A DNA stretch of 27,214 nt, from positions 1 to 27,214 of IMG/VR virus record IMGVR_UViG_3300032315_000060. One strand, written 5' to 3'. Made by a program: the position numbers and the translations under genes. This stretch comes from a virus. Under the pieces are notes generated by a model, which was not told the DNA's origin, made no database searches, and saw nothing but the letters and a program-made list of their open reading frames with translations. The number at the start of each line of letters is the position of its first letter. Within the stretch, counting starts at the first letter, position 1. Below, piece after piece: positions 3,067 to 25,891 of the stretch.

Positions 3067-3273
3067 ATGCAATTAGAAACAATGAGTTTTGCCCAAGCGC
3101 TTAGAGAAAAAATTCGCTCGGACATGAACAACTTTACAGACGACATGGCTAGTGGACAGTGCATTGACCATGCGTCGTATAAGGAACTTTGCGGGGTGAT
3201 TCGAGGTCTAGCCTACGCAGAGCGGCATTTAATTGACCTCGCTGACAACATAGAGAAGGCTAACGATGAGTGA
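3067..3273 (+). CDS. Small hypothetical head-module protein
   Basis: This is a 68-residue, mostly helical protein with no motif I recognise. The start is set by AGGAG at 3056-3060, six bases before the ATG, inside the 3' end of the portal gene. A second in-frame ATG at 3082 (MSFAQALREK) is possible but has a poorer spacing. The final codons overlap the start of the GroES-like gene by 8 bases, so the two are translationally coupled. Charged heptad-like stretches (LREKIRSDMNNF, LAYAERHLIDLADNIEKAN) suggest a helical hairpin. Its place between portal and co-chaperonin suggests a head-assembly accessory, but this is inference from position only. Confidence 0.75.
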   Translation: MQLETMSFAQALREKIRSDMNNFTDDMASGQCIDHASYKELCGVIRGLAYAERHLIDLADNIEKANDE

Positions 3274-3694
3274 AGCTATAGCAGTTCCGGAGAATGAATT
3301 AATCCTGCCGCCGGGTGTAAAAGCCCCAGAAGTGGATTCAGAGTACGAATCAGCAGAAGTTAAGGCAAAAGCGCTACCAGAGCCAAAAGGCTGGCGGTTG
3401 CTGTGTGCTTTGATTGACCCTGACGATACTTATGAAAGTGGTCTTGTAAAAGCCGATGCGACCAAGCAGGTTGAGGAGTTAACCTCTCCAGTGTTGTTTG
3501 TCATCAAAATCGGACCCACCGCATATGATCCAGATAAGTTCCCAGAAGGGGCTTGGTGTAAGGAAGGCGACTTCGTTATTACCCGTCCGTATACAGGTAC
3601 ACGGATCAAAATCCACGGCAAAGAGTTCCGCTTGATTAATGATGATCAAGTAGAAGCAACAGTCGAAGACCCACGCGGAATTTCCCGCGTTTAA
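3266..3694 (+). CDS. GroES-like co-chaperonin
   Basis: The protein has 142 residues. Residues ~42-135 follow the GroES fold pattern: a first strand GWRLLCALI, then a mobile-loop-like segment DDTYESGLVKAD (about 53-64), then VLFVIKIGP, EGDFVITRPYTGTRIKIHGKEF and a closing strand NDDQVEATV. The hydrophobic GLV in the loop corresponds to the GIVL tripeptide of GroES that docks on GroEL. The first ~40 residues are an extra, low-complexity acidic and proline-containing extension that GroES lacks. Known phage co-chaperonins (T4 gp31, RB49 CocO) replace GroES so that host GroEL can fold a bulky capsid protein. This gene lies in the capsid operon upstream of scaffold and capsid, which fits that role. 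The assignment is by pattern recognition; the fold was not computed. Confidence 0.78.
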   Translation: MSEAIAVPENELILPPGVKAPEVDSEYESAEVKAKALPEPKGWRLLCALIDPDDTYESGLVKADATKQVEELTSPVLFVIKIGPTAYDPDKFPEGAWCKEGDFVITRPYTGTRIKIHGKEFRLINDDQVEATVEDPRGISRV

Positions 3695-5764: not shown

Positions 5765-6679
5765 ATGGCTATTTCACGTGCACAACTACTGAAAGAGTTG
5801 CTCCCAGGCTTAAACGCTTTGTTCGGTTTAGAGTACAAGCGTTACGGCGAAGAGCACAAAGAGATCTACGAAACTGAGAAATCAGAGCGTAGTTTTGAAG
5901 AAGAAACCAAGCTGTCCGGCTTCTCTGCTGCACCAGTCAAAAACGAAGGTTCTGCCATCGCTTATGACAATGCACAAGAAGCTTTTACAGCACGTTATAA
6001 CCACGAAACCATTGCCCTCGGCTTCTCCATCACTGAAGAGGCAATCGAGGACAACTTGTATGACAGCCTCTCTGGTCGTTATACCAAGGCTTTGGCTCGT
6101 GCTATGGCTTACACCAAGCAAGTTAAATCTGCGGCTGTATTGAACAACGGCTTTACCAACTCTGCCCAGTATTACGGCGGCGACGGTGTACCTCTGTTCT
6201 CTACTTCACATCCGTTGGTTTCTGGTGGTGTTAACAGCAACCGTCCTTCCACTAACTCTGACTTGAATGAGACTTCGTTGGAAAACGCAGTTATTCAAAT
6301 CGCAGCTTGGACAGACGAGCGTGGCTTGCTCATCGCAGCAATGCCCCGTAAGTTGATCATCCCACCAGCACTACAGTTCGTTGCAACTCGTTTACTTGAG
6401 ACTAACCTCCGTGTTGGTACCACTGACAACGACATCAACGCATTGAAGAACAATGGTTCGATCCCAGAAGGTTACGCAATTAACCACTATTTGACCGACA
6501 CCAATGCTTGGTTCTTATGTACTGATGTACCTAACTGCATGAAGCACTTTGAGCGTATGCCTTTGGCTAACTCAATGGACGGCGATTTCGACACTGGTAA
6601 CGTACGTTACAAGTCTCGTGAGCGTTATTCGTTTGGCTGGTCTGATCCACTCGGAATGTTTGGTTCACCAGGCGCCTAA
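5765..6679 (+). CDS. Major capsid protein (Mu gpT-like, HK97 fold)
   Basis: The protein has 304 residues, the usual size for a coat subunit without a delta domain. Features resembling the Mu gpT-type head subunit are an early helical segment (LLKELLPGLNALFGLEYKRY), the extended E-loop-like region FSAAPVKNEGSAIAYDNA, then RYNHETIALGFSITEEAIED, a conserved GVPLFSTSHPLVSGGVN block near residue 140 and an A-domain-like end with FLCTDVPNCMKHFER. AAGGAG at 5751-5756 gives a strong ribosome site eight bases before the ATG. The coding sequence uses many optimal-looking C-ending codons, as expected for the most abundant virion protein. A strong terminator follows immediately, closing the head operon. 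It is the likely substrate of the GroES-like protein. Confidence 0.9.
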   Translation: MAISRAQLLKELLPGLNALFGLEYKRYGEEHKEIYETEKSERSFEEETKLSGFSAAPVKNEGSAIAYDNAQEAFTARYNHETIALGFSITEEAIEDNLYDSLSGRYTKALARAMAYTKQVKSAAVLNNGFTNSAQYYGGDGVPLFSTSHPLVSGGVNSNRPSTNSDLNETSLENAVIQIAAWTDERGLLIAAMPRKLIIPPALQFVATRLLETNLRVGTTDNDINALKNNGSIPEGYAINHYLTDTNAWFLCTDVPNCMKHFERMPLANSMDGDFDTGNVRYKSRERYSFGWSDPLGMFGSPGA

Positions 6680-6700: not shown

Positions 6701-6725
6701 ACCCCTCTTCGGAGGGGTTTTTTAT
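6701..6725 (+). terminator. Rho-independent terminator of the head operon
   Basis: A perfect 7-bp stem (ACCCCTC / GAGGGGT) is closed by a TTCG loop, giving the very stable C(UUCG)G tetraloop, and is followed by a run of T interrupted only by one A. It begins 21 bases after the capsid stop codon and ends just inside the last codons of the convergent minus-strand HNH gene. On the minus strand there is no downstream T tract, so it should act mainly on forward transcripts. A separate perfect 12-base palindrome, ACACTATAGTGT, sits immediately upstream at 6685-6696 and may form a second weak hairpin. Confidence 0.92.
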
Positions 6726-7093
6726 TTCTTCTTCGCTGCTTTTTTAGCTTTGCGTTCCTCATAATGGTGGATTCTATGGCAGTTTGCACACAATGGGATA
6801 CACTTTTTTATCTCTTCCATAGCTCGTTTAAAGCGTCCGTCTTTAGCTAATTGGTGAACACTTTGTTTTGTGTGGTCACGAACTACATGATGAAAATCAA
6901 TAATTGCTGGATGGCTAGATCCACAATACCTACATTTTTGAGTTGCTTTAAAGTCAATCCACTGCTTACGGTATTCCCTTTTGTTTTTGTTAGTTAATTT
7001 TTGGACTTTTTCTTTGTTGCTTGCGTAGTATTTAGCTGAGCCTTTACGAAGAGATTCTTTTTTTCTAGGGTCGTTTGGGTCTTTATAAGGCAT
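6722..7093 (-). CDS. HNH endonuclease
   Basis: This 123-residue protein of the small phage HNH type has Lys/Arg-rich ends that suit DNA binding. It has the zinc-binding pair C54/C57 (KCRYCGSS), then DFHH (H68, H69) with the first catalytic His, and C102-A-N104-C105-H106 followed by H109/H110, giving the N and last H of the HNH site and the second metal pair. The gene is last in the minus-strand island. Its ATG overlaps the metallopeptidase stop by one base (TAATG), so it is co-translated. Free-standing HNH genes of this size often behave as homing endonucleases beside conserved structural genes, and the capsid gene is next door. Others cut DNA during packaging with terminase, and that is less likely here because terL is 6 kb away on the other strand. 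Confidence 0.88.
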   Translation of the reverse strand: MPYKDPNDPRKKESLRKGSAKYYASNKEKVQKLTNKNKREYRKQWIDFKATQKCRYCGSSHPAIIDFHHVVRDHTKQSVHQLAKDGRFKRAMEEIKKCIPLCANCHRIHHYEERKAKKAAKKK

Positions 7094-7755
7094 TAAACAC
7101 GCTTATTGTATGAATGTTTAAGTATTAAGTCTTTGATTTTTTTAGGTAATTTTGTATAATCGTTATCAAAATCAGCAGGCATTTTAGTCCAAACTTCGGG
7201 AAGCGCAAATGGGGCTTTACCCTTGGGATACCATATACGGGTATGTTGCATTGCAAGATAAAAGTACACGTATGCGTTAGCTTTTTGTATGTATTCTTTG
7301 AGGTTTATTGGTAGATAAAATTGATCGATTTTCTTAGCCGATCGTTTTTCACAATCGAGTTCTAGATTTAAACACCCTTGTAACATTTCTTTTGTTTTAC
7401 GGGGCCCAAGCTCTATTTTATGCTCTAACCATTCGTGAAAAATAGTGAGGGGGTCATGGTTTTCCCCTTTAATTTGTATGGTTTGGTTCCATACTTTTGC
7501 CTGTTCGGTATATTGATCCCGGTGGCAGGTTTCGTGAACCATAATGGGTATCCAGTCTTTGGATAATCCTGCTACAAATAGTCGGTCCGTGTGACTACAA
7601 AAAAACCCTGAGACCATTACGCCATCCATACGGACTTGTTTTTTACGTTGAATATGCACCGCTATGTCATGCGCATTACTAGCCATGATTTCAAATTCAA
7701 CCCACGCCCGAACGTCTACTGGTAAGGCTTTGAGGTCGATTTCAATTTTATTCAT
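7093..7755 (-). CDS. Putative HExxH zinc metallopeptidase-like protein
   Basis: The protein has 220 residues. The segment IPIMVHETCHRDQ carries an HExxH motif (H74-E75-T-C-H78) preceded by hydrophobic residues, the standard active-site helix of zincin peptidases. A plausible third ligand is in the downstream helix LELDCEKRSA (E132, D134, E136), like the glutamate ligand of gluzincins. Other clusters are FHEWLEHKIEL (~106-116) and a C-terminal basic tail. There is no signal peptide. It may be a cytoplasmic protease or a degraded peptidase fold used for something else, and its target is unknown. It is not in a position typical of capsid maturation proteases and lies on the strand opposite the virion genes. 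The start ATG overlaps the stop of the upstream membrane protein (ATGA). The peptidase call depends on this motif alone. Confidence 0.6.
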   Translation of the reverse strand: MNKIEIDLKALPVDVRAWVEFEIMASNAHDIAVHIQRKKQVRMDGVMVSGFFCSHTDRLFVAGLSKDWIPIMVHETCHRDQYTEQAKVWNQTIQIKGENHDPLTIFHEWLEHKIELGPRKTKEMLQGCLNLELDCEKRSAKKIDQFYLPINLKEYIQKANAYVYFYLAMQHTRIWYPKGKAPFALPEVWTKMPADFDNDYTKLPKKIKDLILKHSYNKRV

Positions 7756-8649: not shown

Positions 8650-9450
8650 ATGGCTAATATTGGAATCTGGCGTTCTATTACCCAAGTGGGTACGTACGAG
8701 CCGTTTGAGCTTCAGGTTGCTCGTGGGCAAATTCAAGGACATCGGAATGTCACTGTCTTTGGATTCAACCCAGATGTTGACCAAACTCAAGTCTCGGTTT
8801 GGCCCTTGCAAAGTCTGATTACGTTCCCTGCATCTGCTTTGCAAATGAAGGTCAGTTCGACGAGTGCAAACGACACAAGCGCAGGAACTGGTGCACGAAC
8901 AGTCATCGTTCAGGGGTTGGACGCAAATTACAATGAAGTCACAGAGACCGTCACGCTGAACGGACAAACAGCCGTCACGATGACCGCATCGCTTCTTCGC
9001 ATCAATTACGCTTATGTGGCAACCGCAGGCTCTGGAAACAGCGCCGCAGGCGACATCTACATCGGCACAGGCACTGTGACCGCAGGCGTCCCTGCGACCG
9101 TCTACGACATCATCAAGACTGATTACAACAACACAACCACAGGTAGTTACACCATCCCAGCAGGGTATACGGGGTATTTGTCTCAAGGTCTGTTTTCGGC
9201 GGGTCAGCCCAGCGGCTCGACTCAAGTTCAAGGTCGTTTGTTGACCCGTGGTTTGAACAATATCCGCATGACTGCGGCGCTCACCACTTTGAACAACGGC
9301 GTGGCGGACTATGTGTTTGAGTACCCGCTGGCAATACCAGAGAAGACCACGGTTGAGGCAACTGCAATTGCCAGTGCAAACAACAACGCCGTGTCTTCCA
9401 TGTTCATTATCCTCGTAGTTCAAAACTACATGCAGGGCATAAATGGCTAA
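8650..9450 (+). CDS. Putative virion structural protein, GC-rich
   Basis: The protein has 266 residues. ATG at 8650 is chosen over an in-frame TTG at 8644 because AGGAG (8638-8642) is spaced seven bases from it. The protein is Thr/Ser/Ala/Gly-rich and beta-stranded. It starts MANIGIWRSITQVGTYEPFE and contains IVQGLDANYNEVTETVTLNG, a pattern I associate with virion proteins of marine and freshwater phages. There is no membrane segment or enzyme motif. Base composition is clearly different from the neighbours: hand counts give 33/60 G/C at 9001-9060 and 36/60 at 9061-9120, with many GAC, ATC, ACC and GCC codons. This suggests recent acquisition from a different phage background. The last eight bases overlap the next gene. 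Confidence 0.68.
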   Translation: MANIGIWRSITQVGTYEPFELQVARGQIQGHRNVTVFGFNPDVDQTQVSVWPLQSLITFPASALQMKVSSTSANDTSAGTGARTVIVQGLDANYNEVTETVTLNGQTAVTMTASLLRINYAYVATAGSGNSAAGDIYIGTGTVTAGVPATVYDIIKTDYNNTTTGSYTIPAGYTGYLSQGLFSAGQPSGSTQVQGRLLTRGLNNIRMTAALTTLNNGVADYVFEYPLAIPEKTTVEATAIASANNNAVSSMFIILVVQNYMQGING

Positions 9451-9763
9451 GACTCCTGCGTGGCAACGCAAAGAGGGCAAAAACCCCGAAGGCGGTCTAA
9501 ACGCTAAGGGGCGAGCTTCATACAATGCAGCAAATCCGGGGAAACCAGGATTAAAAGCTCCCCAGCCAGAAGGCGGTTCAAGACGTGATTCGTTTTGTGC
9601 CCGCATGAAAGGTATGAAGCGTAAATTAACCAGCGCTAAAACCGCTAACGATCCAGATAGCCGCATCAACAAGTCATTACGTGCTTGGAACTGTAAAGAA
9701 GGCGGGTCTGTTCGTGGTGGAGGATGTGAGATTCGTGGTAAGACTAAAGGGAAGATGGTATGA
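9443..9763 (+). CDS. Small basic protein, DUF6321-like, with C-terminal KGKTKG signature
   Basis: The protein has 106 residues and is strongly basic. The N-terminal AWQRKEGKNPEGGLNAKGRA and the central RRDSFCARMKGMKRKLTSAK with DPDSRINKSLRAWNCKEGG match what I remember of DUF6321, a family of small phage proteins of unknown function. It ends GGGCEIRGKTKGKMV (9716-9760), a signature shared with the genes at 10212 and 10494. No membrane segment was seen. Basic charge and helix-breaking glycines are compatible with DNA binding inside the head or nucleic-acid packing, but there is no direct evidence. The gene begins eight bases inside the previous one and its stop overlaps the holin start (ATGA), so it is co-translated with both. 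Confidence 0.8.
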   Translation: MAKTPAWQRKEGKNPEGGLNAKGRASYNAANPGKPGLKAPQPEGGSRRDSFCARMKGMKRKLTSAKTANDPDSRINKSLRAWNCKEGGSVRGGGCEIRGKTKGKMV

Positions 9764-9945
9764 AAGAGCATTTAACCGAAAGCACTAAACACGTTGTAGA
9801 TGGGATATCTTTAGTTACAGTGGTAGGCACACTAACAGACTTATTGCCTGCGGTAGCGGCTTTATTTACGATTGTTTGGACAGTAATTCGTATTTATGAA
9901 ACCAAAACAGTTCAAGGATGGATTAATCGTGCCAAGCGTAAGTAA
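9760..9945 (+). CDS. Holin-like small membrane protein (T7-type candidate)
   Basis: The protein has 61 residues. There is a charged N-terminus, then GISLVTVVGTLTDLLPAV and ALFTIVWTVIRIYETKTVQ. The stronger membrane helix is at about 29-46, with a weaker one at about 13-27, followed by a basic tail GWINRAKRK. The layout recalls T7 gp17.5-type (class II) holins, which form the lethal membrane lesion that lets lysozyme out. It starts inside the previous gene's stop (ATGA) and its end overlaps the next gene by 17 bases. It lies 17 kb before the lysozyme, where the three-TM holin candidate is found, so one of the two may act as antiholin or serve another membrane role. The call is based on size and hydropathy judged by eye. 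Confidence 0.6.
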   Translation: MKEHLTESTKHVVDGISLVTVVGTLTDLLPAVAALFTIVWTVIRIYETKTVQGWINRAKRK

Positions 9946-10210
9946 GAAGCAACACAATTTCATGGCGGCTGTGGCTAAGAACCCCGGTTTTGCTAAGAAA
10001 GCAGGAGTACCTTCTGCGGTTGGGAAGGAATTTTTAACTGCCGACAAAGGCAAAACTTTTAAAGAAGGTGGGACTATGAAAAAAGCAAATCCGTTTATGG
10101 AAATGATTGCAAAGAAAAAAGAAGCTGCTGCTAAAAAGCCAGCTAAAGCGGCTGCTATGCCTATGAAAAAAGGTGGCGTGGCTAAAAAGAAAAGCGGAAA
10201 GGCTTGCTAA
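9929..10210 (+). CDS. Small basic phage protein (KKQHNFM type)
   Basis: This 93-residue protein starts at GTG 9929, giving PSVSKKQHNFMAAVAKNPGF, a recognisable beginning of a widespread small phage protein of unknown function. An upstream in-frame ATG at 9896 would add 11 residues translated from inside the holin gene and is less likely. AAGGA (9914-9918) is ten bases before the GTG. The sequence continues AKKAGVPSAVGKEFLTADKG and then a very Lys/Ala-rich tail (KKKEAAAKKPAKAAA, MKKGGVAKKKSGKAC), similar to histone-like tails. It is highly positive, with no aromatic core, so it is probably partly disordered. It could be a packaged nucleic-acid-binding protein. That function is inferred from charge only. 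Confidence 0.72.
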   Translation: MPSVSKKQHNFMAAVAKNPGFAKKAGVPSAVGKEFLTADKGKTFKEGGTMKKANPFMEMIAKKKEAAAKKPAKAAAMPMKKGGVAKKKSGKAC

Positions 10211-10211
10211 C

Positions 10212-10493
10212 ATGGCTAAGTTTCCCGATCTAACCGGTGATGGTGAAGTAACTCAAGCCGACATCCTAAAGGGACGCGGCGTAAAAGCAGCTAAAAAAGG
10301 TGGACTTATGAAACATTCAGATATTAAAAAAGACATGCCGATGATGAAAAAAGTAGCTGCTAAGGCAGTTAAAGGGCACGAGTCACGTATGCACAAGATG
10401 GCGGGTGGTGGTGTAACCCGTGCTGATGGCTGCGTTATGAAGGGTCACACCAAAGGCAAGATGGTTAAGATGGCGGGCGGCGGAAGTTGCTAA
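10212..10493 (+). CDS. Small basic protein with EF-hand-like loop and ADGC/KGHTKG signature
   Basis: This 93-residue protein has its start at ATG 10212, one base after the previous stop, because an upstream in-frame ATG lies within another gene. Residues 6-17 (DLTGDGEVTQAD) match a 12-residue EF-hand or dockerin calcium loop, with D6, T8, D10, T14 and D17 in ligand positions. A Lys-rich region follows, then KMAGGGVTRADGCVMKG with HTKGKMV at 10419-10466, and a second KMAGGGSC at the very end. The duplicated KMAGGG and the signature tie it to the proteins at 9443, 10494 and 11281. Only one loop is present and the supporting helices are short, so calcium binding is a hypothesis. The role is unknown. 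Confidence 0.75.
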   Translation: MAKFPDLTGDGEVTQADILKGRGVKAAKKGGLMKHSDIKKDMPMMKKVAAKAVKGHESRMHKMAGGGVTRADGCVMKGHTKGKMVKMAGGGSC

Positions 10494-10889
10494 ATGCCAA
10501 GTTCTCGTGTTAACCCCATTTCTCCTGCCGCCCAATTAGATTTGGGCTTTGGTAATACCCCTGAACAAGTACAAAAGGGTAGAGCGGCAGATCCGGGGTA
10601 TAAGGAAGTACACGAGAAGTACAACCCACCAGAGAAAGACCAGAAAGCTAAAGCTGCTGAGAACAAAGAGTTTGAAGACAAGCGCCAGCAAAGAAGTAAG
10701 TTAATACAGCAGACGGAAATGGCTAAGATCAAAGAGATCTTTGAGCGGTCTAAAGGGGGTGGCGGTGCTGCTGGTATCCCTAAGACTGGTAAAAAGCCCT
10801 ATGACTTTAAGAAGGGCGGATTAATTAGTGCATCATCCCGTGCTGACGGTTGTGCTGTACGGGGCAAGACTAAAGGACGCATGATATGA
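10494..10889 (+). CDS. Small basic protein with C-terminal RADGC/KGKTKG signature
   Basis: This 131-residue protein starts directly after the previous stop (TAAATG). The N-terminal third is Pro/Asn-containing (NPISPAAQLDLGFGNTPEQ). Residues ~40-85 form a charged helix (EKDQKAKAAENKEFEDKRQQ and RSKLIQQTEMAKIKEIFERS), followed by a glycine stretch and KKPYDFKKGG. The last 16 residues, RADGCAVRGKTKGRMI (10839-10886), closely match the end of the preceding gene's signature. The codons differ at many synonymous sites between the copies, so the motif looks conserved by protein-level selection, not freshly copied. The stop overlaps the next ATG (ATGA). No family or function is known to me. A helical body with a fixed basic Cys-containing tail suggests a shared docking partner. 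Confidence 0.75.
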   Translation: MPSSRVNPISPAAQLDLGFGNTPEQVQKGRAADPGYKEVHEKYNPPEKDQKAKAAENKEFEDKRQQRSKLIQQTEMAKIKEIFERSKGGGGAAGIPKTGKKPYDFKKGGLISASSRADGCAVRGKTKGRMI

Positions 10890-11284
10890 GAGCTAGTCGA
10901 GGCATGGGCGCTGTGATGCCTAGCAAAATGCCGGGCAAGAAAGTCATTCATCGTAAGGACAACCCTAACGATGTGGATATGTACGCCAAGGGCGGTAAGG
11001 TTGGTAAAAGCGTTACTACTACCAAAGGTGGTACAGCTTCTGCCATAGCTAAAAAATTACTACAGAAGCCGGGTTCGTTAACTGCGGCTGATACGTTTGC
11101 AGAAGGTGGCAAAACTTCTAGCGTTAACAAGGCGGGTAACTACACCAAACCCGGTATGCGCAAGTCTTTATTTGAGAGTATCAAAGCGTCTGCTACGCAT
11201 GGTACGGGGGCGGGTCAATGGTCTGCTAGGAAAGCACAACTCCTAGCTAAACGCTATAAAGAAAAAGGCGGGGGCTATAAGTGA
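10886..11284 (+). CDS. Small basic protein with QWSARKAQ C-terminal domain
   Basis: The protein has 132 residues. The N-terminal part, ASRGMGAVMPSKMPGKKVI then HRKDNPNDVDMYAKGGKV, is a recognisable phage small-protein type. The middle is a Thr/Ala/Gly linker. Residues ~85-132, KAGNYTKPGMRKSLFESIKA then GAGQWSARKAQLLAKRYKEK, form a compact Trp-containing domain seen in many phage and some bacterial proteins, with no proven function. It looks like a fusion of two short modules. The start lies in the previous stop (ATGA) and the end overlaps the next gene's GTG (GTGA), so translation is coupled throughout. It could be a DNA- or RNA-binding internal head protein, inferred from charge. Confidence 0.75.
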   Translation: MRASRGMGAVMPSKMPGKKVIHRKDNPNDVDMYAKGGKVGKSVTTTKGGTASAIAKKLLQKPGSLTAADTFAEGGKTSSVNKAGNYTKPGMRKSLFESIKASATHGTGAGQWSARKAQLLAKRYKEKGGGYK

Positions 11285-11631
11285 AATGGTCAGACAAACG
11301 CAAAAAATCAATCAACTGCGACAGCCCAAAGGGGTTCTCGGAGAAAGCCCATTGCGCCAGCAAAAAGAAGAAAATGGCAGGGGGTGGTTTAGCCGCATCG
11401 CAACGTTCCTTAAAAGCTTGGGGCGACCAAGAGTGGACAACCAAGTCAGGGAAGAAGTCATCCGAGACGGGGGAACGATACCTGCCCAAAAAAGCAATAC
11501 AAGCGTTAAGCCCGTCCGAGTACGCAGCAACAACACAAGCAAAGCGGGCGGGAAAAGCACAAGGAAAACAGTTCGTGCCCCAGCCCAAAGGAATAAAAGC
11601 AAAAGTAAAACCGTACAGAAAGGTTAAATAA
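11281..11631 (+). CDS. Small basic protein with GERYLPKKAI domain
   Basis: The protein has 116 residues and starts at GTG 11281, which overlaps the previous TGA. The N-terminus has KRKKSINCDSPKGFSEKAHC with two Cys, then KKKKMAGGGLAASQRSLKAW, which repeats the KMAGGG and SLKAW/SLRAW elements of the proteins at 10212 and 9443. The C-terminal half, SGKKSSETGERYLPKKAIQA then SPSEYAATTQAKRAGKAQGK, is a basic module common in aquatic phage genomes and of unknown function. Very high Lys content, no acidic stretch and no membrane segment. It is the last gene of the first small-basic-protein run and is followed after 3 bases by the adaptor gene. Its role is unknown. Confidence 0.75.
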   Translation: MKWSDKRKKSINCDSPKGFSEKAHCASKKKKMAGGGLAASQRSLKAWGDQEWTTKSGKKSSETGERYLPKKAIQALSPSEYAATTQAKRAGKAQGKQFVPQPKGIKAKVKPYRKVK

Positions 11632-11634
11632 AAG

Positions 11635-12387
11635 ATGACCGTAGTTGCCAATGCAACATTTAATCTTGACCTCTCGGAGATGGTCGAAGAAGCGTTTGAG
11701 CGCTGTGGCTCAGAGCTTCGTTCTGGTTATGATTTGCGTACAGCCCGTCGTTCTTTGAATCTGTTGTTTGCTGATTGGGCAAACCGAGGCATTAACTTAT
11801 GGACGATTGAGCAGGGACAGATCCCGCTGGTACAGGGTACAAACACCTATGACTTACCGCTTGATACTGTAGACTTAATTGAGCACGTTATTCGTACAAA
11901 CCCTGGAGTGCAGAATACTCAGGCAGACCTAACAATCTCACGCATCTCAGTATCTACATACGCAACAATCCCCAACAAGTTGCAGCAAGCTCGCCCTATT
12001 CAAGTATGGGTAAATCGTCAGTCTGGTGCTACATACGCAGGTACAAGCAGCTCTACCCCACCAGCAGGCGTTAATGCCCCTAAGATCGTTATTTGGCCTA
12101 CCCCAGACCAAGGCACTGCCCTAGACCCCTATTACACGTTTGTTTACTGGCGACTGCGCCGTATTCATGATGCGGGTGATGGCGTTAACACAATGGACAT
12201 ACCATTTCGTTTTTTGCCCTGTTTGATTGCCGGTCTGGCTTATTACTTGGCGTTGAAGATTCCGGGCTCGGATGTACGTTTGCCGATCCTAAAACAGCAG
12301 TATGACGAGGCTTGGGAGTTTGCGGCTACAGAAGACAGAGATAAGTCGCCTGACCGCTTTGTACCACGCCGGATGTATATTACCTAG
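11635..12387 (+). CDS. Head-tail adaptor (P22 gp4-like connector)
   Basis: The protein has 250 residues. The beginning, LSEMVEEAFERCGSELRSGY then DLRTARRSLNLLFADWANRG, is the helical bundle typical of gp4/gp6-type adaptors that bind below the portal ring. The middle is beta-rich with a Ser/Thr/Pro linker (TSSSTPPAG), and the end returns to helices (YYLALKIPGSDVRLPILKQQ and YDEAWEFAATEDRDKSPDRF). Size and order fit the connector that closes the head after packaging and receives the tail. The ATG follows a weak AAAG site and is three bases after the previous stop. The following zinc-ribbon and neck genes support the assignment. Family assignment is by recognised pattern. Confidence 0.85.
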   Translation: MTVVANATFNLDLSEMVEEAFERCGSELRSGYDLRTARRSLNLLFADWANRGINLWTIEQGQIPLVQGTNTYDLPLDTVDLIEHVIRTNPGVQNTQADLTISRISVSTYATIPNKLQQARPIQVWVNRQSGATYAGTSSSTPPAGVNAPKIVIWPTPDQGTALDPYYTFVYWRLRRIHDAGDGVNTMDIPFRFLPCLIAGLAYYLALKIPGSDVRLPILKQQYDEAWEFAATEDRDKSPDRFVPRRMYIT

Positions 12388-12833: not shown

Positions 12834-13043
12834 ATGTTTAAAAAAGGCGCAGACGGTGTTACTAAAAAAGGTAAAACCAAGGGTACAAACCTAGGTGATA
12901 CAGGCCCAAGCGTTGGCATCCAAAAGGGTGGCAAAGGCGGTGCGGGTGGTAAAACCAACGAGCAAATGCTAAAAATGGGTCGCAATATGGCTAAAATAGC
13001 TAACCAAGGAATGATGCGCAAAAGCGCAGGAAGAGGTCGATAA
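12834..13043 (+). CDS. Small Gly/Lys-rich protein with KGKTKG element
   Basis: This 69-residue, very basic protein has ~20% Gly. GADGVTKKGKTKGTNLGDTG near its N-terminus echoes the ADGC-x2-KGKTKG signature of the 9.4-10.9 kb genes, but without the Cys and at the opposite end of the protein. A glycine/lysine stretch (IQKGGKGGAGGKTNEQM) and a short helix ending RKSAGRGR follow. AGGAG at 12823-12827 sets the start. The stop overlaps the next ATG by one base (TAATG). Composition suggests a disordered nucleic-acid-binding chain. No function is known to me, and the relation to the other small basic proteins is inferred from the motif. Confidence 0.7.
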   Translation: MFKKGADGVTKKGKTKGTNLGDTGPSVGIQKGGKGGAGGKTNEQMLKMGRNMAKIANQGMMRKSAGRGR

Positions 13044-13306
13044 TGGCTAAGTACAGCATGAAACGTGATGGTAAAGAGGTAGGTCCAGCGTCTGTGTATG
13101 CTGAGCCACATACTATGTCAGGCAAAAAAGTAACTGTTGCTGGTGCTATTAAAGATACGTCTGGTGCACAAGTTATGGATGAGCTCGATATTTCTGTGGG
13201 TAAGCTGAGCAAAAACCTTGGTAAAGGCGTGAAGACATCGGGTATTGAGACTCGTGGTAACGGAGCTGCTACTAAAGGGCGTATTGCTAGAGGACCAATG
13301 GCTTGA
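13043..13306 (+). CDS. Small basic protein
   Basis: The protein has 87 residues. An N-terminal beta-like part (KYSMKRDGKEVGPASVYAEP, then GKKVTVAGAIKDTSGAQVMD) is followed by a helix and a basic Gly/Ala tail, GNGAATKGRIARGPMA, which recalls the KG(K/R) endings of the other small proteins. It is coupled to both neighbours: TAATG with the previous gene and TTGA with the next. The N-terminal half may be a small folded domain. I do not recognise a named family. Its place just before the neck protein, with the second cluster of small basic proteins, suggests a virion component delivered or packaged with DNA, but that is only an inference. Confidence 0.7.
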   Translation: MAKYSMKRDGKEVGPASVYAEPHTMSGKKVTVAGAIKDTSGAQVMDELDISVGKLSKNLGKGVKTSGIETRGNGAATKGRIARGPMA

Positions 13307-25393: not shown

Positions 25394-25891
25394 ATGAAAA
25401 TTGAGCAAAACATTTTGTCTGAGCAGTTAATAGTAAAGTTAAAAGCATTTACTAGGGACGGTAAACAACCTACCCAGACTAATTTTTTTGGGTACGACAA
25501 AGGTGTAACTGGCTTTAGTAACGCTGTTTTTGGTTTTACGCTTAGTGAGGATTTAAAGTCTGAGGTATGCCAAGAGTTGGTTGCAAAAGGTGTATTTGAA
25601 AAAGAGCCTAAAGATTGGAAAGTGTTTATTCATTTAATGTCTAGAGCGTCTTTTATACCTTGGCACGACGACAATACCTACGTATATACAGGAACAATTT
25701 ATTTAAACGAAGTATGGGATAAAAACTGGGGTGGTTATTTTGCTTACGAAGATGGCAATGAAACAAAGTGCATAGCACCGTTTTATAACCAAGGGTGTTT
25801 TTTTGCTCCACCAGTCATGCACTCAGCTTTAATAACCGCAGGAAACGCGCCTTTACGGGAAAGCGTACAACTTTTTGTTAAAGAATATTAA
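25394..25891 (+). CDS. 2-oxoglutarate/Fe(II) oxygenase (prolyl-4-hydroxylase-like)
   Basis: The protein has 165 residues. Residues ~78-165 contain the double-stranded beta-helix with IPWHDDNTYVYTGTIYLNEV: H91 and D93 are the HxD metal ligands, H143 in APPVMHSALI the distal His and R155 in PLRESVQLFV the 2-oxoglutarate-binding Arg. All four key residues are present, so it should be active as an oxygenase. GGYFAYED between them is the usual loop. The N-terminal ~75 residues are a helical cap. Such enzymes hydroxylate proteins or nucleic-acid bases. Those encoded next to fibres in other phages may act on fibre, host-surface or cell proteins, but this substrate cannot be inferred. No clear ribosome site was seen. 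It lies seven bases after the last collar fibre. Confidence 0.85.
   Translation: MKIEQNILSEQLIVKLKAFTRDGKQPTQTNFFGYDKGVTGFSNAVFGFTLSEDLKSEVCQELVAKGVFEKEPKDWKVFIHLMSRASFIPWHDDNTYVYTGTIYLNEVWDKNWGGYFAYEDGNETKCIAPFYNQGCFFAPPVMHSALITAGNAPLRESVQLFVKEY

Follow-up and report, generated by a model that had tools for sequence, protein, structure and literature searches.

Why does a run of small basic proteins, encoded among the head genes of a phage, carry the same short peptide on otherwise unrelated bodies? The question is raised by IMG/VR virus record IMGVR_UViG_3300032315_000060, a 27,214-base stretch analysed whole (hereafter the window). It takes in the last part of a large terminase gene and portal, GroES-like, scaffold-like acidic and capsid genes; downstream of the capsid gene lie two possible cement genes, an island of small basic genes at 9.4–11.6 kb and a portal-adaptor gene. 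The peptide is a C-terminal tag of about 16 residues, whose consensus in environmental virus contigs is KGG-x(n)-SAS[KS]R[AG]DG[CI]Ax[RK]GKT[KR]G[KR]M[VIC]-COOH. Phages of a large group, most of them uncultured, have this tag on small basic proteins at a fixed spot in the capsid block, and the pattern is much larger than the window shows.

Scanning IMG/VR with a DNA pattern for DGCAxxGKTKGxM returned at least 120 stretches, counts that are lower bounds from loci that are not a random sample; genes in the environmental contigs are simple open reading frame (ORF) calls, some with wrong start sites. The window has two matches to the degenerate DNA motif, whereas 100 dinucleotide shuffles of it gave none. 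Because loci fetched by the tag are selected by the motif itself, we built a second set of 80 loci picked by capsid protein, 28 of which have at least 5 kb downstream. A regular expression finds the motif in 27 of these 28, always 1.6–5.7 kb downstream of the capsid gene, and in none of the 28 upstream of that gene or on the other strand; the remaining locus has two diverged tags, KANGIAIKGKSKGRNV and KANGCAVRGKTRGKIC, each running to the stop codon. Across the 28 loci plus the window, the tag ends 42 of the 274 ORFs lying in the capsid-to-adaptor interval versus 0 of 488 ORFs elsewhere (the controls include spurious calls, which lower their motif rate somewhat yet do not account for a zero).

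The tag is linked reciprocally with one capsid/adaptor lineage. Among tag-chosen loci, the same capsid protein (79–90% identical) is encoded in 27 of the 28 that extend far enough upstream, and the adaptor in all 79 that extend far enough downstream. Genomes hold one to six tagged genes, most tag-chosen contigs having two to six tagged ORFs, and a tag profile run over 18 records of 20–67 kb gives matches grouped within a few kilobases in each. Only six matching stretches turn up in approximately 85,000 bacterial genomes, mostly phage-like; an Insolitispirillum match looks like chance. A reading of the window made from its sequence alone (the sequence-only reading) had suggested checking whether the motif is C-terminal and clustered between adaptor and capsid genes, and these counts show that it is; the chance occurrence in basic proteins or scatter over unrelated locations that it had named as contrary evidence is not what the control ORFs and bacterial genomes show.

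The 42 tags of the capsid-chosen loci give the consensus SAS[SK]R[AG]DG[CI]Ax[RK]GKT[RK]G[KR]M[VC]. Invariance of G-13, G-8, T-6 and G-4 is fixed by the selecting pattern (G-x4-G-x-T-x-G), a constraint that does not apply to conservation at the other positions. Cysteine is not essential: its apparent weight was an artefact of our first search pattern, C and I being split 50:50 in the capsid-chosen loci. Aligning 64 diverse tags brings out a near-invariant GG as well, mostly as KGG, at a variable distance upstream. In tag-chosen loci the motif is almost always C-terminal, mostly with exactly three residues beyond KTKG. AlphaFold2 (AF2) gives no confident fold for the tag, as expected for a docking peptide; its model confidence was too low for a fold search.

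Within the window, the sequence-only reading had placed the motif correctly and read its peptides correctly in the genes at 9443–9763, 10212–10493 and 10494–10889, with a reduced form in 12834–13043. It credited three island proteins with one ADGC / KGKTKG signature; the ADGC part holds for 10212 and 10494, the protein of 9443 having a variant tail that lacks ADGC. The tail closes the protein, as it had described, in 9443 and 10494, and is followed by eight further residues in 10212. Its argument that the motif is kept at the protein level stands: the two ADGC tags have 3 of 13 codons in common and differ at six synonymous and four non-synonymous codons. Among tags within one genome, the mean proportion of synonymous differences (pS) is 0.69 versus 0.16 for non-synonymous ones (pN), a ratio biased low because the search pattern fixes some residues.

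The tag is also portable. DUF6321 (PF19846) and SKKQ-type (phrog_16759) modules are phage mini-domains, carried in the window by genes 9443 and 9929. Most DUF6321 proteins end LRAWKC, but those of several clades extend further, through a GG linker into the tag. On a DNA tree of the DUF6321 domain, tag state needs six changes, of which well-supported branches force three; the tag has been gained or lost on DUF6321 at least three, and up to six, times.

What precedes the tag is far less constant. As the sequence-only reading had supposed, one tail is common to unrelated bodies: clustering of 802 tagged bodies gave 226 groups, 160 with a single member. Searches with 102 cluster representatives gave no Pfam match and three with PHROG matches, all via the SKKQ module, which 122 of 826 tagged ORFs carry. 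With DUF6321 and SKKQ set aside, homologues of a tagged body occur in only 6% of other genomes in the set, and 38 of 52 bodies have none in any of 28 sister genomes; for comparison, the neighbouring adaptor is present in 100% of sister genomes and DUF6321 in 89%. All tagged bodies are net basic (median about +6 to +10, none negative). A weak match of one body (L374) to an endolysin PHROG (E-value 3.4e-4) found no phage relative and is not used as evidence. By eye, a few bodies resemble outer-membrane barrels, with repeated amphipathic β-strands and an aromatic end residue before the KGG linker (Table 1); three were scanned, with no family match.

Named relatives place the tag in one lineage. 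Among 50,697 phage records it occurs only in one 65,014-base genome, deposited as MinM2, Pag-Yong1 and Pra-JY27. Planktothrix phage Pag-Yong1 has one tagged gene, lying between the minor capsid and portal-adaptor genes; its product, the 309-residue protein UMO75986.1, ends GRDGCAKRGRTKGRFI. Roseobacter phage CRP-902, pelagiphage HTVC023P and the metagenome-assembled DSL-LC04, relatives whose capsid proteins are 56–64% identical, have no tag in the capsid-to-adaptor genes read, and in CRP-902 the island is entirely absent, which makes the tag an accessory feature of a single lineage. DUF6321 itself is widespread in cyanophages and pelagiphages. In P-SSM2 it lies at the end of a protein encoded between gp15 and gp16 (T4-GC119), on whose presence in virions a cyanophage virion proteome paper is silent (PMC3037559). 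The SKKQ module is found in jumbo phages and forms the N-terminus of CBB_322, which mass spectrometry detected in purified phage CBB virions (30 peptides, 43.57% coverage; PMC5259590). Of the cultured phages with either mini-domain, only Pag-Yong1 and its two copies were found tagged. For a second C-terminal motif type (GCGAV.KGTKF..; GGGAAVRGMGFKGVF of HTVC023P), searches of cultured phages gave no match and one self-match, and we therefore claim no superfamily. No published description of the tag was found in the open-access PMC papers searched, searches with tag strings included, and an earlier one may exist elsewhere.

One constant tag, many changing bodies, a fixed place and a single capsid lineage fit an address tag on particle cargo. 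With about even confidence, we read the tag as a C-terminal address by which variable basic proteins are brought to the particle as it forms. The 9.4–11.6 kb stretch would then be a cargo island within the capsid gene block, its small, basic, fast-turnover bodies joined through a KGG linker to a conserved address. As a short linear motif, the tag would dock on a single invariant component (capsid shell, scaffold, portal or adaptor) during particle assembly and so load whatever bodies the phage owns into or onto the particle. Cargo might be ejected with the DNA, and variable bodies could then meet variable hosts or defences. From the genome pattern we infer the virion location, the docking partner, ejection and cargo function alike. 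A bolder version, that the lineage delivers fast-changing orphan proteins into hosts via one C-terminal loading tag as a counterpart of the T4 internal proteins, is tentative, and we doubt it more than we believe it.

Several observations weigh against an address on particle cargo. Relatives with 56–64% identical capsids do without the tag, which is therefore unnecessary for assembly in general. Nor is a free C-terminus strictly required, since 8–40 residues follow some tags and one form stops at GKTRA. None of the tagged bodies could be matched to an anti-defence or ejection protein already known, the CBB virion evidence bears on the SKKQ module and not on the tag, and packaging is a proposal read from the genes of tagged phages.

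The basic character of the bodies invites a different explanation, in which the tag binds nucleic acid or phosphate and the tagged proteins condense DNA or neutralise charge with no docking partner. Net positive charge on all bodies permits compaction without demonstrating it, Lys or Arg is kept at four tag positions, and 40 of the 42 capsid-chosen tags fit the P-loop nucleoside triphosphatase (NTPase) Walker A motif [AG]x4GK[ST]. Yet D and the hydrophobic positions (C/I, A, M and V) are kept likewise, and the Walker-A-like spacing falls within the last 13 residues, with no AF2 fold and so none of the following helix and Walker B of a P-loop NTPase. The bodies also turn over far faster than generic compaction would need, which argues against compaction as the whole job. 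We consider a binding peptide of this kind unlikely; DNA compaction alone is a weaker rival than an address tag.

Somewhat less probable again is that the tag acts in the infected cell, for example by bringing proteins to a membrane, to a complex of the host or to the holin-like protein encoded next to them. A gene for a small hydrophobic protein does sit within the island, in the window and in several relatives, and a few bodies have hydrophobic stretches or β-repeat segments; however, a long hydrophobic stretch is present in only 16 of 826 tagged ORFs, and the strict cement-to-adaptor location with a single capsid lineage suits a particle-linked role better. Very improbable, and already disfavoured, is that the tag is a functionless repeated DNA end, left behind when neighbouring genes duplicated in tandem and recombined. 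Tagged genes do lie head to tail, and repeated gain or loss on the DUF6321 gene would suit such exchange, but most synonymous sites differ among the tags of one genome with the protein little changed, and the C-terminal placement is held across divergent genomes.

Returning to an address tag, known systems offer partial likenesses. The capsid-targeting sequence (CTS) of the T4 internal proteins, which are packaged in the head and injected, is N-terminal and is removed by the prohead protease. Encapsulins, shells of the HK97 fold, take up otherwise unrelated cargo by a short C-terminal cargo-loading peptide that binds the inner face of the shell. PEP-CTERM, LPXTG and other C-terminal sorting signals likewise form a tag common to unrelated proteins, together with a membrane helix and a processing enzyme. 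The tag is best read as working like the T4 system without being a member of it. T4 internal proteins are highly diverse defence proteins in which only the CTS is conserved (PMC3012670), and here too a short conserved address would sit on highly diverse small proteins, most with no homologue in a sister genome; unlike the CTS, the tag is C-terminal, and it differs in sequence. The encapsulin peptides resemble it in being short, C-terminal and on unrelated bodies, whereas here the shell is that of a phage head filled with DNA, and docking is a proposal. With the sorting signals it has in common a C-terminal position on unrelated proteins, and differs in that no hydrophobic membrane helix appears beside it in the consensus.

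Function aside, so strict a tag on such variable bodies in so fixed a place is unusual. Were it a loading signal, hundreds of virion-cargo genes that otherwise escape recognition could be picked out in a common phage lineage by a simple sequence search. The tag would also lead to a natural source of candidate anti-defence proteins, and could itself serve as a portable peptide for placing proteins in phage heads. If cargo is also delivered, the phages would hold a large and hardly explored repertoire of candidate anti-host effectors, and the tag by itself would be enough to read it from metagenomes.

Table 1. Island genes, their anchors and β-strand-repeat bodies. Positions are those of the window unless preceded by the handle of another locus.
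Feature	Position	Strand	Observations
Major capsid protein	5765..6679	+	Upstream island anchor; phrog_371, E-value 1.8e-22
DUF6321 (PF19846) protein, 106 residues	9443..9763	+	GG linker, then variant tag GGGCEIRGKTKGKMV at 9716-9760, gene end
Holin-like protein, 61 residues	9760..9945	+	One hydrophobic stretch, by sequence; homologue in 10/28 sister loci
SKKQ-module protein (phrog_16759)	9929..10210	+	Lys-rich, end SGKAC; PHROG E-value 5.4e-18; 24/28 sister loci
Tagged protein, 93 residues	10212..10493	+	EF-hand-like loop DLTGDGEVTQAD; tag RADGCVMKGHTKGKMV at 10419-10466, then KMAGGGSC and stop
Tagged protein, 131 residues	10494..10889	+	Tag RADGCAVRGKTKGRMI at 10839-10886, very end; body in a cluster of 3
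Basic protein, 132 residues, no tag	10886..11284	+	phrog_17747 module (QWSARKAQLLAK), E-value 4.9e-26; 25/28 sister loci
Basic protein, 116 residues, no tag	11281..11631	+	phrog_14910 module, E-value 2.2e-31; 19/28 sister loci
Portal-adaptor protein	11635..12387	+	Downstream island border; homologue in 28/28 sister loci
Basic protein, 69 residues, outside island	12834..13043	+	Reduced motif GADGVTKKGKTKG near N-terminus (12846-12884); 14/28 sister loci, downstream of adaptor gene
β-strand-repeat tagged body	L014:3877-4230		By eye
β-strand-repeat tagged body	L222:12748-13155		By eye
β-strand-repeat tagged body	L256:5136-5558		By eye
β-strand-repeat tagged body	L381:12355-12777		By eye
β-strand-repeat tagged body	L283:1589-2143		By eye

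Within the island, the match of the 106-residue protein to PF19846 (E-value 4.5e-19, 69.3 bits) lies above the curated cutoff of 28.5; most of its relatives lack the tag extension and stop at LRAWKC, and several encode other short hydrophobic proteins after the DUF6321 gene. The SKKQ gene, which also matches a virion structural protein family (phrog_22033, E-value 2.1e-8), probably starts at GTG 9929; we prefer this to the alternative ATG 9896 because relatives start MPS[KV]SKKQHNF. Many relatives have the tag form of the 93-residue protein followed by about 8–13 residues ending GG..C. The EF-hand-like loop of that protein occupies 10227–10262, and a few other tagged bodies have similar loops.

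Among the anchor genes, that at the adaptor's position is annotated as a portal-adaptor or Pam1 adaptor protein in Pag-Yong1 and DSL-LC04. The capsid gene has weaker matches to protease-fused capsid families, and no separate protease was found among the portal-to-capsid genes scanned, the rest of the genome lying beyond the window. A PDB sequence search returned no relative of the capsid protein or of four island proteins. The GroES-like co-chaperonin gene (3266–3694) lies between the portal and scaffold-like genes, as it does in HTVC023P-type pelagiphages. Between the capsid and cement genes, two genes on the minus strand (6722–7755) are oriented opposite to their neighbours; one is HNH-endonuclease-like by eye (CxxC and HH patterns), the other has a HETCH motif, and the pair is possibly an inserted homing element. 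Downstream of the adaptor, a small protein (13043–13306) with homologues in 25 of 28 sister loci ends in a second conserved C-terminal motif, GIETRGNGAATKGRIARGPMA, and at 25394–25891 motifs suggest a possible 2-oxoglutarate/Fe(II) oxygenase.

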